A DNA stretch of 39,629 nucleotides from Nitrosopumilaceae archaeon. GTDB taxonomy: Archaea; Thermoproteota; Nitrososphaeria; Nitrososphaerales; Nitrosopumilaceae. The stretch lies in NCBI GenBank assembly GCA_022823825.1, contig JAJEHG010000060.1, positions 1-39,629 on the forward strand. The letters run 5' to 3'. The position numbers and the translations under genes are program-made. Positions 5,213 to 25,324 of the stretch are shown piece after piece; the stretch's first letter is position 1; every line of letters begins with the position of its first letter. The notes below the pieces were generated by a model. The model searched no databases, was not told the origin of the DNA, and saw only the letters and a list, made by a program, of their open reading frames with translations.

Positions 5213-6667
5213 TCACCCCTTCATGACGCCCATGGGGACGAGCTTTGCAACCTTTGTCCCGATGCCGAGCGCGTGCGACACCTCCACCACGGCGTCCACG
5301 TCCTTGTATGCCTCCGGCGTCTCCTCGACCACCCCGTCCCGCGTGAGTGACTTTATGAATATGCCCCTGCTGTTAAGCGACGCCCTGACCTGCTGCTCCG
5401 TATAGTTGCGGCGCGCCTTGGACCTTGACATCATGCGCCCCGCGCCGTGCGCCGTGGAACCAAAGCTCAGGCTCATCGCGTTTGGCTGCCCCAGAAGGAT
5501 CCAGCTCGCGGTGCCCATCGAGCCGGGCACCAGCACCGGCTGCCCTATGTCCCTGTACCTGGAGGGAACCTCGCTGCGGTCTGCCGGAAACGACCTGGTG
5601 GCCCCCTTGCGGTGCACCACCAGCCTGCGCCTCTCGCCGTCCACCTCGTGCTCCTCCACCTTTGCAATGTTGTGGGCCACGTCGTATACCAGCCGCATGC
5701 CCAGGTCGGTCTCGGACCGCGAAAAGACGCGCTCAAACGACTTGCGCGTCCAGTGGGTTATCATCTGCCTGTTGCTCCACGCAAAGTTGAGCGCGGCAAA
5801 CATCGCCCTGCGGTACGACTCGCCCTCCTCCGACGAGTTGGGGACGCACGCAAGCTCCCTGTCCGGCAGGGTGATGCCGTACTTTGGCATGCACCGCTCT
5901 GACACCCTCAGGTAGTCGCTGCATATCTGGTGCCCGAACCCGCGGGACCCGCAGTGAATCAGTATGGTTATGGATCCCAGCCTTATCCCCATCCGCTCGG
6001 CCGCCACCTCGTCGTGTATCTCCGCCACCTTTTGAATCTCCAGAAAGTGGTTTCCAGAGCCCAGGCTGCCAAGCTGGGGGGCGCCCCTGCTCTTTGCCTT
6101 TTCTGACACCGCGCCCGGGTCGGCGCCGCCTATGCGCCCGGACTCCTCGCAAGAGTCAGCGTCGTCAGCAGAGCCGTACCCGTTCTCCACAGCCCAGTCC
6201 ACCCCCCTTACCATCACCTCGTCAAGCTCCGACTTTCTGAGCCGGACGGAGCCCTTTGAGCCGACGCCGGAGGGGATGGCGCCAAACAGGTCGGACACCA
6301 CGTCCTTTATGCGCGGGCGCATCTGCGCCTCGTCAAGGTCCGTCCTAAGCAGCCTGACGCCGCAGTTGATGTCGTACCCGACGCCGCCGGGGCTTATCAT
6401 GCCCTCGTCGGCGTCCATGGCCGCCACGCCGCCGACCGGGAACCCGTACCCCTCGTGCCCGTCGGGCAGGACCACCCCGTGCCCCACTATGCCCGGTATG
6501 GACGCCACGTTGCAGGCCTGCCTTATGGTGCGGTCGGTCATCATCTTGTTCAGAAGCGTGTCGTCGGCGTATATGCGGACGGGCGCGATGCGGCCGGACG
6601 ACCTGTCGGGCTCTATTACATACTGGTTCTTTCCGGTTTGCACCGGCCGCACTGCAGGATCTGGCAT
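5213..6667 (-). CDS. rtcB: RNA-splicing ligase RtcB
   Basis: RtcB joins RNA 2',3'-cyclic phosphate (3'-phosphate) ends to 5'-OH ends and seals tRNA exons after intron removal in archaea. This 484-aa protein has the diagnostic residues: the metal-binding Asp99 and Cys102 in GGVGYDINCGVR, His207 in LGSGNHFLEIQ, His238 in IHCGSRGFGHQ, His332 in VAHNIAKVE, and the guanylylated His407 in STAHGAGRMMSR. Residues about 163-195 hold a less conserved Ser/Asp/Gly-rich stretch. A TATA-like ATTTAAAAT (minus strand, near 6695) is about 27 bases before the ATG, supporting a leaderless transcript. It heads an operon with the PDCD5-like gene and an unknown gene. The window contains a tRNA-Trp with two introns that would be a substrate. 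Confidence 0.95.
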   Translation of the reverse strand: MPDPAVRPVQTGKNQYVIEPDRSSGRIAPVRIYADDTLLNKMMTDRTIRQACNVASIPGIVGHGVVLPDGHEGYGFPVGGVAAMDADEGMISPGGVGYDINCGVRLLRTDLDEAQMRPRIKDVVSDLFGAIPSGVGSKGSVRLRKSELDEVMVRGVDWAVENGYGSADDADSCEESGRIGGADPGAVSEKAKSRGAPQLGSLGSGNHFLEIQKVAEIHDEVAAERMGIRLGSITILIHCGSRGFGHQICSDYLRVSERCMPKYGITLPDRELACVPNSSEEGESYRRAMFAALNFAWSNRQMITHWTRKSFERVFSRSETDLGMRLVYDVAHNIAKVEEHEVDGERRRLVVHRKGATRSFPADRSEVPSRYRDIGQPVLVPGSMGTASWILLGQPNAMSLSFGSTAHGAGRMMSRSKARRNYTEQQVRASLNSRGIFIKSLTRDGVVEETPEAYKDVDAVVEVSHALGIGTKVAKLVPMGVMKG

Positions 6668-22245: not shown

Positions 22246-22590
22246 TACGTATGAAAAAAGCCGACGTGCAAAAATACGAACTTCCCAAGCGACGCTGCTT
22301 GATCGGGCTGGCACGCCAGAGGTACGATATTGCACCCTTTTTGCAGCCGCATGCGGCACACGCCCTAGGCCGCCCGCTGTGGCATCCTGCCGCCCCCATT
22401 CTCCGTCACCGCCCGGCCATTGTCCGGCACAGACGCGCCGCCCCGGACTTGCCCATGAGGGTTCGCAAAACATGTGATCCATGGACCCGCAGGACCGCCG
22501 CAAAAAACGGCAGAGTCGCAGGCATGGGCCCGGGCTCGCACAGGTCTGCCTCATATAGCTTAAAATTCAAGCATGCCGGCGTAATACCGT
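22246..22590. other. 345-bp gap before tRNA-Trp
   Basis: A 120-codon plus-strand frame starting MKKADVQKYELPKRRC at about 22251 crosses this gap and runs into the tRNA gene. Its composition after residue 35 (many Arg, Pro, His) looks like a GC-rich shadow, so I do not call it. A TATA-like GCTTAAAATT near 22558-22567 sits about 27 bases before tRNA-Trp and is probably its promoter. I see nothing else. Confidence 0.4.
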
Positions 22591-22740
22591 GGGGTCGTAG
22601 CCTAGCCTGGTAGGGCGACAGTATCTACACAGATCACCGCTAAGGGCTCCAGAGGTAAACTAAGCAAACTGACTCACGGATGATGTAAGTTTGGAGCTGT
22701 AGTGACCCGTAGGTCGCCGGTTCGATTCCGGTCGGCCCCA
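22591..22740 (+). tRNA. tRNA-Trp (anticodon CCA) with two introns
   Basis: Removing two segments gives a perfect 74-base cloverleaf. Acceptor GGGGTCG/CGGCCCC has one wobble and discriminator A. The D arm is GCCT/GGGC, the anticodon stem ACGGG/CCCGT with loop CTCCAGA (anticodon CCA), the variable loop AGGTC, and the T arm GCCGG-TTCGATT-CCGGT. Intron 1 is about 22620-22643 (24 nt, between positions 28 and 29) and contains a small ATCT/AGAT hairpin. Intron 2 is about 22653-22704 (52 nt, canonical 37/38 site) and carries TGGAGC, which pairs with GCTCCA across the 5' splice site, as a bulge-helix-bulge requires. Exact splice points may move by a base or two. CCA is not encoded. A TATA-like GCTTAAAATT is about 27 bases upstream. 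RtcB, encoded at 5213-6667, would seal the exons. Confidence 0.9.
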
Positions 22741-22850: not shown

Positions 22851-25145
22851 TCACGCGCCACGCCCGTTCTGCCCCCGCTTGAGCACGTTCAGGGCGGAGC
22901 CCGCCTCAAACCACCCTATCTGGAGCTTGTTGTACGAGTGAGCGAGCAGTATGTCCTCCGACTTGCCGTTCGCATGCGTTACCGTGCATGTGACTGGCCT
23001 GCCGGGCTCCATGTGCGACAGTCCGTGCAGGCTTATGCGGTCGTCCTCCCAGATTCGGTCATAGTCTGTGGGATTTGCAAAGGTCAGGGCCAGCACCCCC
23101 TGCTTTTTGAGGTTGGTCTCGTGTATGCGGGCAAGGCTCCTTGCGATGACCGCGGCGCATCCCAGATACCGCGGCGTCATTGCAGCGTGCTCCCTGCTGC
23201 TGCCCTCGCCATAGTTGTGATCCCCCACTATGACCCACTTTACGCACTGTTCCTTGTACTGCCTTGCGATGGCCGCAAACTGCTCAGTCTTGCCTGTCAG
23301 CGCGTTCTTTCCGGAGCCCACCTCGCCCGTGAACGCGTTGACGGCGCCAAGCAGCAGGTTGTCGCTCAGCCTGTCGAGGTGGCCCCGCAGCGACAGCCAC
23401 GCGCCGGCAGGCGAGATGTGGTCGGTGGTGCACTTGCCGTGGGTCTTTACCATCACGGGCATCTCCTCGTAGTCCTGGCCGTCCCACGACTCAAAGGGCT
23501 CCAGCTTTTGCAGCCTGCCGCTGTCCGGGTTTATCTCGACCCTTACCTTCTCCGCGTCCCCGGGCGCAGGCGGCTCCACGTACACCGAGCCGGGGCCCTC
23601 GAATCCCCGGGGCGGCACCTCGGGCGCCGGCGGGGGCGGCTCGAGCACGTGCCTCGTGCCGTCTGCAGACACGAGCTCGTCTCTCGTGGGGTCAAACGAG
23701 AGCCGTCCCCCCAGCGACAGCGCTATGACCATCTCCGGGCTGCCGATAAAGTTCAGGGTCGAGCGCCTGCCGTCGTTGCGGCCCGGAAAGTTGCGGTTGA
23801 ACGTGGTTACGATGGTGTTCTCGGCGCCGGGCTCGAGCTCGGGCCTGTTCCACTGCCCTATGCAGGGCCCGCAGGCGTTTGCCAAGACGGTCGCGCCGAT
23901 GCCCCGCAGCGACTCCATCTGCCCGTCGCGCTCTATGGTGGCCCGTATCTGCTCGGATCCCGGCGTTACAAGCAGCGGCACCTTTGACGCGATGCCGAGC
24001 CTGCTTGCCTGCTCCGCCAGGCTGGCCGCGCGCGACATGTCCTCGTATGACGAGTTGGTGCAGCTGCCGATCAGCGCCACTGATATCTCGTCGGTGTACG
24101 AGTTTGACTCCACGTCCCCTGCAAGCCCCGAGATGGGCCTTGCCAAATCCGGCGTGTGCGGCCCCACGATGTGGGGCTCCAGCTCGGACAAATCGATCTC
24201 TATTATCTGGTCAAAGTATTTTTTGGGGCCATCCGCGACGCCGGGATCGGCCGTGAGCAGCTCCTGCGCGTACTCGTCTGCCAGCCCCGCGATCTCGGCG
24301 CGCCCGGTCATCTTCAGGTACGCTGACATCCTCTCGTCGTACGGGAACACGGAGCAGGTCGCGCCTATCTCCGCGCCCATGTTCGTGATTGTCGCCTTGC
24401 CCGTGCAGCTTATCGACGAGGCGCCCTCGCCAAAGTATTCCACAATCGAGTTGGTGCCGCCGGATACGGTCAGGATCTCGGCCACCTTTAGTATGACGTC
24501 CTTGGGGGCCGCCCACCCGCGCAGGGAGCCGGTGAGTTTTACTCCGATCATTTTTGGATACAGCAGCTCCCACGGGCTTCCGGCCATCACCTCGGCCGCG
24601 TCAAGCCCCCCGACCCCGACTGCAACCATGCCGAGGCCGCCGGCGTTCGGGGTGTGGGAGTCGGTGCCTATCATCAGCCCCCCCGGGAACGCGTAATTCT
24701 CAAGCACCACTTGGTGTATAATGCCGGCGCCTGGCTTCCAAAAACCGCACCCGTACTTGGCCGCGGCGGTGCGCAGGAACTCAAAGACCTCGTTGTTTTT
24801 GCCAAGCGATGTCCTCATGTCCTCCTCGCCGCCGGACTCGGCCCGTATCAGGTGGTCGCAGTGGACCGTTGTGGGTATTGTAACGCGGCCCAGCCCGGTC
24901 TGCATGAACTGCAGCATCACCATCTGCCCCGTGACATCCTGCAGGGCGACCCTGTCGGGCCTCAGGAACACGTAGTCCTTGCCCCTTGCGATGGGTTCTG
25001 ACGGCGCGCAGTCAAGGTGGCCTGCAAGTATCTTTTCGGCCAGGGTCAGCGGCCCTGCACCAGCCTTACTACTGCGGTACCTCTCCAGCCTCTCGGACAT
25101 TGCGCTGTATGTGTCGTGCACAGTCTCAATCGTGGTCTTGCTCAT
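22851..25145 (-). CDS. acn: Aconitate hydratase
   Basis: Aconitase isomerises citrate and isocitrate through a [4Fe-4S] cluster. From ATG 25145 the protein has 764 aa. The three cluster cysteines are Cys362 (GSCTNSSYEDM) and Cys424/Cys427 (ANACGPCIGQW). Substrate loops GLMIGTDSHTPNAGGLG (near 157-173) and NYGEGSSREHAAMTPRYLG in the C-terminal swivel domain are intact. Length and domain order match the mitochondrial-type aconitases. The frame is open upstream to 25247, but MSKTTIETVHDTYS is the natural start. In thaumarchaea it would serve the incomplete or oxidative citric-acid route supplying 2-oxoglutarate (family knowledge). A Pro/Gly/Glu-rich linker (PPPPAPEVPPRGFEGPG) joins the halves. 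Confidence 0.95.
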   Translation of the reverse strand: MSKTTIETVHDTYSAMSERLERYRSSKAGAGPLTLAEKILAGHLDCAPSEPIARGKDYVFLRPDRVALQDVTGQMVMLQFMQTGLGRVTIPTTVHCDHLIRAESGGEEDMRTSLGKNNEVFEFLRTAAAKYGCGFWKPGAGIIHQVVLENYAFPGGLMIGTDSHTPNAGGLGMVAVGVGGLDAAEVMAGSPWELLYPKMIGVKLTGSLRGWAAPKDVILKVAEILTVSGGTNSIVEYFGEGASSISCTGKATITNMGAEIGATCSVFPYDERMSAYLKMTGRAEIAGLADEYAQELLTADPGVADGPKKYFDQIIEIDLSELEPHIVGPHTPDLARPISGLAGDVESNSYTDEISVALIGSCTNSSYEDMSRAASLAEQASRLGIASKVPLLVTPGSEQIRATIERDGQMESLRGIGATVLANACGPCIGQWNRPELEPGAENTIVTTFNRNFPGRNDGRRSTLNFIGSPEMVIALSLGGRLSFDPTRDELVSADGTRHVLEPPPPAPEVPPRGFEGPGSVYVEPPAPGDAEKVRVEINPDSGRLQKLEPFESWDGQDYEEMPVMVKTHGKCTTDHISPAGAWLSLRGHLDRLSDNLLLGAVNAFTGEVGSGKNALTGKTEQFAAIARQYKEQCVKWVIVGDHNYGEGSSREHAAMTPRYLGCAAVIARSLARIHETNLKKQGVLALTFANPTDYDRIWEDDRISLHGLSHMEPGRPVTCTVTHANGKSEDILLAHSYNKLQIGWFEAGSALNVLKRGQNGRGA

Positions 25146-25324
25146 TATCGTTACGAGCTTGGCGGGGGCCGGCCCGAATTTAACTCTAGACTGCGCCGCC
25201 GCACCGGGATGTCGTGGAGCCGTGTAGCAGGCGCCGCCTTCCAGCAATATACAATTATAAGCAAAAAGCGGCCATACAGGGCGTTGTCAGCCATCCCCAG
25301 CACCGCCCCTAGGAGCCGCGCATA

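Follow-up and report, generated by a model that had tools for sequence, protein, structure and literature searches.

Introns of archaeal tRNA-Trp genes guide the formation of Cm34 and Um39 (or Cm39) together with L7Ae, Nop5, and fibrillarin (PMC6313347, PMC4090602). The closest described examples are sR50 of Pyrococcus and the pre-tRNA-Trp intron of Haloferax volcanii, each a guide for Cm34 and Um39 (PMC7994747, PMC4090602, PMC6313347). An H. volcanii strain with an intronless tRNA-Trp gene is reported to be viable (Joardar 2008, cited in PMC4090602), which shows that the guide intron is dispensable. Crenarchaeota and Thaumarchaeota also carry non-canonical bulge-helix-bulge (BHB) introns, which lie outside position 37/38, may be present several to a gene, and have a BHB that is recognized by an endonuclease made of two kinds of subunit (PMC8450103, PMC3218864, PMC4090602). 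Our partial coverage of the literature turned up no paper describing a tRNA-Trp intron in the Nitrosopumilaceae.

Here, we describe a tRNA-Trp locus from an ammonia-oxidizing archaeon of the Nitrosopumilaceae, located in a 39,629-nucleotide stretch of DNA (contig JAJEHG010000060.1 of assembly GCA_022823825.1; hereafter, the window). Based on sequence comparisons, we think it likely that this tRNA-Trp(CCA) gene is functional and contains two BHB introns, and that the second of these is a former box C/D-type guide that has lost its C39 arm. Like the sR50-type guides, intron 2 occupies position 37/38 of tRNA-Trp and has boxes D′ and C′ and an arm directed at the anticodon loop, with the position-39 arm retained in sister lineages. 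Unlike the sR50-type guides, as judged from published descriptions of the euryarchaeal introns, the Thermoproteota introns (~50–60 nt) have no recognizable boxes C and D, their arms covary with the intron bases at the splice junctions, and the window's family is without the position-39 arm. Nothing essential separates the locus from the known BHB introns of Crenarchaeota and Thaumarchaeota, and the 28/29 site in tRNA-Trp is common to several classes.

A tRNA-Trp(CCA) gene interrupted by two introns

Removal of both introns (Table 1) leaves a 74-nt tRNA-Trp with the anticodon CCA. The joined exons, GGGGTCGTAGCCTAGCCTGGTAGGGCGACGGGCTCCAGACCCGTAGGTCGCCGGTTCGATTCCGGTCGGCCCCA, form stems of 7, 4, 5, and 5 pairs. 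When excisions were enumerated around both sites, only one 74-nt product combined U33 and CCA with 21 or more paired stem positions; the boundaries of intron 2 are equivalent under slides of −1, 0, and +1. With both introns removed, ARAGORN reported a 75-base tRNA-Trp(cca) that includes the next base. With intron 1 alone removed, it reported tRNA-Trp with an intron "(39,52)", and with intron 1 left in place it returned the wrong isotypes (Val, Gln). The initial annotation had placed introns at 28/29 and 37/38 of a flawless 74-nt tRNA-Trp(CCA) and had held that neither excision suffices by itself; the unique product and the ARAGORN calls bear out both claims. Precise excision therefore restores a canonical tRNA, as for archaeal tRNA BHB introns.

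The unspliced gene was missed by both ARAGORN and Rfam, whose sole call in the window is an intronless tRNA-Thr(CGT) at 352–428 on the minus strand. Our search of the genome, the assembly of which is ~90% complete, found no second copy of tRNA-Trp. The TATA-like TTAAAATT lies ahead of the gene, and AAAATTC is found ahead of the intronless loci as well. Free-energy z-scores for the precursor and introns were uninformative, ranging from −0.6 to +0.2; the minimum free energy (MFE) fold of the whole precursor has a misfolded D-arm and so was left out of the analysis.

Table 1. Features of the tRNA-Trp locus and associated genes in the window (a slash within a bulge marks the cut)
Feature	Position	Strand	Basis or remark
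TATA-like TTAAAATT, 24–31 nt upstream	22560–22567	+	Read from sequence; putative function
Exon 1: acceptor 5′ strand, D-arm, positions 26–28	22591–22619	+	Spliced product, family conservation
Intron 1 BHB central helix, GGCG, pairs with CGCT 22638–22641	22614–22617	+	RNAalifold
Intron 1 bulges, AC/A and AA/G	22618–22620 and 22642–22644	+	One at each cut
Intron 1, 24 nt, non-canonical 28/29	22620–22643	+	Excision, conservation; site used in other classes
Exon 2, GGGCTCCAG, positions 29–37, anticodon CCA at 22649–22651	22644–22652	+	Sequence, spliced product
Intron 2, 52 nt, canonical 37/38	22653–22704	+	Boundaries equivalent within −1/+1
Putative former C39 guide arm site; AAACTAAGCAAA not complementary to the tRNA	22657–22668	+	1–4 of 9 pairs, all registers
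Box D′-like CTGA	22669–22672	+	Mean major-base frequency 0.995; kept in other families and classes
Box C′-like ATGATGT	22680–22686	+	Mean major-base frequency 1.000; invariant in family
UUUGGAGC, antisense to G31–A36, wobble G37, and first intron 2 base	22690–22697	+	Sequence, conservation
Intron 2 BHB helix 3′ strand, GTAG; pairs C32, U33, C35; C34 mismatch	22699–22702	+	MFE, intermediate lacking intron 1
Intron 2 3′ bulge, TG/A	22703–22705	+	MFE, intermediate lacking intron 1
Exon 3, from A38 through discriminator A73; no encoded CCA	22705–22740	+	Sequence, spliced product
Aconitase gene, downstream	22851–25247	−	Marks synteny of intron-bearing and intronless species
RtcB tRNA-splicing ligase	5213–6667	−	PF01139, E = 7.6e-172; predicted role

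Splice sites and splicing machinery

At intron 1, RNAalifold recovered the GGCG–CGCU helix in 38 unique sequences, and in other classes GACG–CGTT replaces GGCG–CGCT at the 28/29 intron, which is a compensated change. For intron 2, the MFE structure of the intermediate lacking intron 1 (−15.8 kcal/mol) resembles a BHB, with UGA bulged on the 3′ side. The folding check suggested in the initial annotation thus yielded a BHB at both splice sites, that of intron 2 being mismatched at C34 and weak in its inner helix. The annotation had also reasoned that an intron within a stem calls for an endonuclease of broad specificity. In agreement, the genome encodes two full-length paralogs of the tRNA-intron endonuclease (PF01974/PF02778; 187 and 204 amino acids, counted from the first Met), each of which has an N-terminal and a C-terminal domain. 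Fibrillarin is also encoded in the genome.

The published assignment of the α2β2 type of endonuclease to Thaumarchaeota (PMC4090602) is the basis on which we infer that type here. In the splicing pathway that we envisage, the BHB of intron 1 would form between D-arm bases 23–26 and the 3′ end of the intron itself. Intron 1 is probably cut before intron 2, since the BHB of intron 2 is framed by the anticodon stem, which is absent until intron 1 has gone. Both introns are predicted to be cut by the two-paralog endonuclease, probably as α2β2, and RtcB would then join the exons and likely circularize the introns as well.

The homologous intron in other lineages is a probable guide with covarying arms

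A profile search with the intron region gave matches across the class and the phylum. These introns share a common order of elements. Arm 1 precedes CUGA or a variant of it; a short loop or hairpin leads on to GAUGA or AUGAUG; and arm 2, which contains UGGAG, is followed by a purine-rich BHB strand. In most sequences from outside the family, arm 1 makes 8–9 of 9 pairs with positions −3 to 43, so that g5 faces C39 at the N+5 position of a box C/D guide. On the precursor, arm 1 spans the 3′ splice site, and arm 2 the 5′ splice site, in most other lineages. Where a hairpin separates the boxes, its pairing is kept, as expected for a K-turn, while its sequence changes (CCAC-UGAG-GUGG, CUUCC-UAAA-GGAAG, CACG-GAAA-CGUG).

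The pairing of both arms covaries. Among 19 unique non-family sequences with at least six of nine arm 1 pairs, g5–C39 is always G–C; g3:−1 occurs as U–A, C–G, and A–U, and g2:−2 as A–U, C–G, and U–A. L284 and L285, which belong to the same family, are distinguished by precisely such a swap. When the arm 1 guides were shuffled among these 19, a set selected for pairing and a shuffle that ignores relatedness, the mean was 129 pairs and the maximum 141, so that none of 2000 shuffles reached the 150 observed. Arm 2 pairs with exon positions 31–37 and the first intron bases and covaries with them (118 pairs observed; shuffled mean 90, maximum 102, 0 of 2000), in a shuffle that likewise ignores relatedness. 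Given how the 19 were chosen, and the blindness of the shuffle to relatedness, a fairer figure comes from all 25 unique non-family sequences, which average 6.68 pairs at N+5 versus 1.3–4.1 in slid registers. Since the covariation of both arms takes in intron bases at the splice junctions, it is the unspliced precursor that is recognized, and the covariation thereby shows a putative intronic methylation guide that reads this precursor. Pairing by arm 1 is also absent from the f14-g47 and f10 lineages; its loss is therefore not limited to the window's family.

Intron 2 in the Nitrosopumilaceae

The window has counterparts of box D′ (CUGA) and box C′ (RUGAUGA) in CUGA and AUGAUGU, with a short loop in between. 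Within the family, the loop between them has a mean major-base frequency of only 0.64, compared to 0.967 for AAGTTTGGAGC. We predict that the two boxes form a K-loop or K-turn that is a site for L7Ae. The initial annotation had described strings that "faintly recall" boxes C and D; the likeness is genuine, but "faintly" understates it, as the boxes are near-invariant and homologous to those of the covarying guide. It was also right about TGGAGC (22692–22697), which is complementary to the exon sequence GCTCCA (22646–22651).

The pairing partners of a working guide are another matter. In the family, arm 1 at N+5 averages 3.26 of 9 pairs, much as in other registers, and a guide arm with position 39 at N+5 of CUGA is thus absent from the window and from the family (~3 of 9 pairs). 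Arm 2 of the family ends at the first intron base and does not covary with the junction. The antisense arm is present, but no box D follows UGGAGC, and at the spacing that would put C34 at N+5 most family sequences read GUAG or GCAG. Terminal boxes C and D were likewise looked for upstream of arm 1 and downstream of arm 2 and found neither in the family nor in the lineages read. Three further candidates were set aside. A box C at the junction of the circular intron (GUG/AGGU) was dismissed, as the bases vary within the family (for example, GUG/UGG and GUA/AGG), and a box D read as CUGU or CUGC directly after GGAG is missing from f7, some f14, and others. A conserved alternative target for the bases preceding CTGA was judged unlikely, because the distance of the AAGCUA block from CTGA differs among genera.

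The proposal of a guide RNA in the intron therefore holds for its ancestry, with arms that covary elsewhere, but not for its present form in the family, where the C39 arm is lost and box D is lacking. We regard intron 2 of the window's family as the probable relic of a guide. A working methylation guide is unsupported, because the arm adjacent to CTGA matches tRNA-Trp in no register and UGGAGC is followed by no box D. Nevertheless, CUGA, AUGAUGU, and UUUGGAG are conserved to an extreme degree, which argues for some remaining role of intron 2.

What intron 2 may still do

Could intron 2 be a fully working C/D guide after all, which methylates C34 by means of UUUGGAGC? The near-invariance of the boxes and of the antisense arm would fit, as would the fibrillarin gene, and Cm34 has been measured in tRNA-Trp of S. 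acidocaldarius and H. volcanii (PMC7668247). We nonetheless consider this unlikely: the arm has no CUGA on its 3′ side, the one CTGA that exists follows a stretch with no complementarity to the tRNA, and the covariation between arm 2 and the junction is missing within the family. It is also doubtful that the conserved elements serve splicing or folding only, their resemblance to C/D boxes being without RNP meaning in this family. In favor of such a role, the arm 1 site of the family holds AARCU-type bases that can pair with an intronic AGUUU, and 70% of unique family sequences form at least 5 bp with it, versus 41% when shuffled. This excess is modest, however, and the boxes show near-zero variation amid potentially pairing bases that vary, whereas plain folding elements would be expected to covary rather than stay fixed. 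Finally, the locus might be a pseudogene or a chance tRNA-like sequence, with another tRNA-Trp doing the work. That standard finders miss it and that the genome is somewhat incomplete could be cited in support; but with flawless exons, retention throughout much of the family (see below), and no other copy found in the genome, we hold this to be highly improbable.

We favor the relic of a guide, and suggest the following history. Intron 2 would descend from a box C/D-type guide in which arm 1 was followed by D′ (CUGA), a short loop, C′ (AUGAUGU), and finally arm 2. As comparison with other lineages shows, arm 1 of the ancestral form paired on both sides of the 3′ splice site and put C39 at N+5 of CUGA, and arm 2 paired on both sides of the 5′ splice site and covered the anticodon loop. 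Because both arm pairings are made with the unspliced precursor and are incompatible with the BHB, the methylation mark would have been placed before splicing. Arm 1 of the window's family no longer matches its target, and C39 would no longer be marked by intron 2; the K-loop boxes and UUUGGAGC have most likely been kept as an L7Ae-bound mask of the anticodon loop until splicing. More speculatively, the Thermoproteota tRNA-Trp intron might be a minimal single-K-turn guide that clamps both splice junctions, and so combines C39 methylation with a checkpoint that delays splicing, of which the Nitrosopumilaceae would keep only an L7Ae-dependent switch. We offer this last idea tentatively.

Phylogenetic spread and loss of the introns

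Among the 151 genomes sampled (members named Nitrosopumilaceae), ~115, from 22 genera, have the two-intron 150-nt precursor at full length or nearly so, with 80–99% identity. Carriers among named organisms include Nitrosopumilus, Nitrosarchaeum, Nitrosotalea, and Cenarchaeum. Outside the family, introns at 28/29 and 37/38 turn up again in further orders and classes of the phylum (in our comparison, f2 is Nitrosocaldus), which makes this an old architecture of a known type. Judged from these genomes, the two-intron arrangement is ordinary for these archaea, old in the phylum, and not peculiar to the window genome.

An intronless tRNA-Trp(CCA) gene was found in 21 of the 151 genomes: 10 of 22 from the window's genus, and 11 of 21 from g19. 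All seven that we examined (L049, L050, and L058–L062, from family genomes G019, G011, G068, G119, G080, G064, and G141) occupy the same aconitase-flanked locus and are ~97% alike between the two genera, implying that both introns were lost or replaced in place. Either a simultaneous loss of both introns or a horizontal replacement in place could account for these loci. Unlike the H. volcanii strain mentioned above, this is a natural loss of both introns, at the same locus in two genera. A stand-alone guide with the pattern TGATGN{8,24}TTGGAGNNCTGA gave no match in the intronless genomes and two single matches in intron-bearing ones. In f8 (L308, L312, and L313), which we infer to be Nitrososphaeraceae, the 37/38 intron is without C/D-like boxes and a second intron lies in the T-arm. 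Full two-arm guide, half guide, box-less intron, and intronless gene thus form a natural series for intron retention, and close relatives among the ammonia oxidizers, some with the introns and some lacking them, offer a direct test of whether the intron is maintained by methylation of C34/C39 or by control of splicing.

Extra introns occur in several other lineages, near 9/10, in the D-loop, or in the T-loop. A third tRNA-Trp intron, near 9/10 or in the D-loop, is present in L071, L082, L315, L316, and L318. An archaeal tRNA-Trp was also present on two contigs labeled Chitinophagaceae and SAR324 (L155 and L168), which therefore look like misbinned thaumarchaeal contigs.
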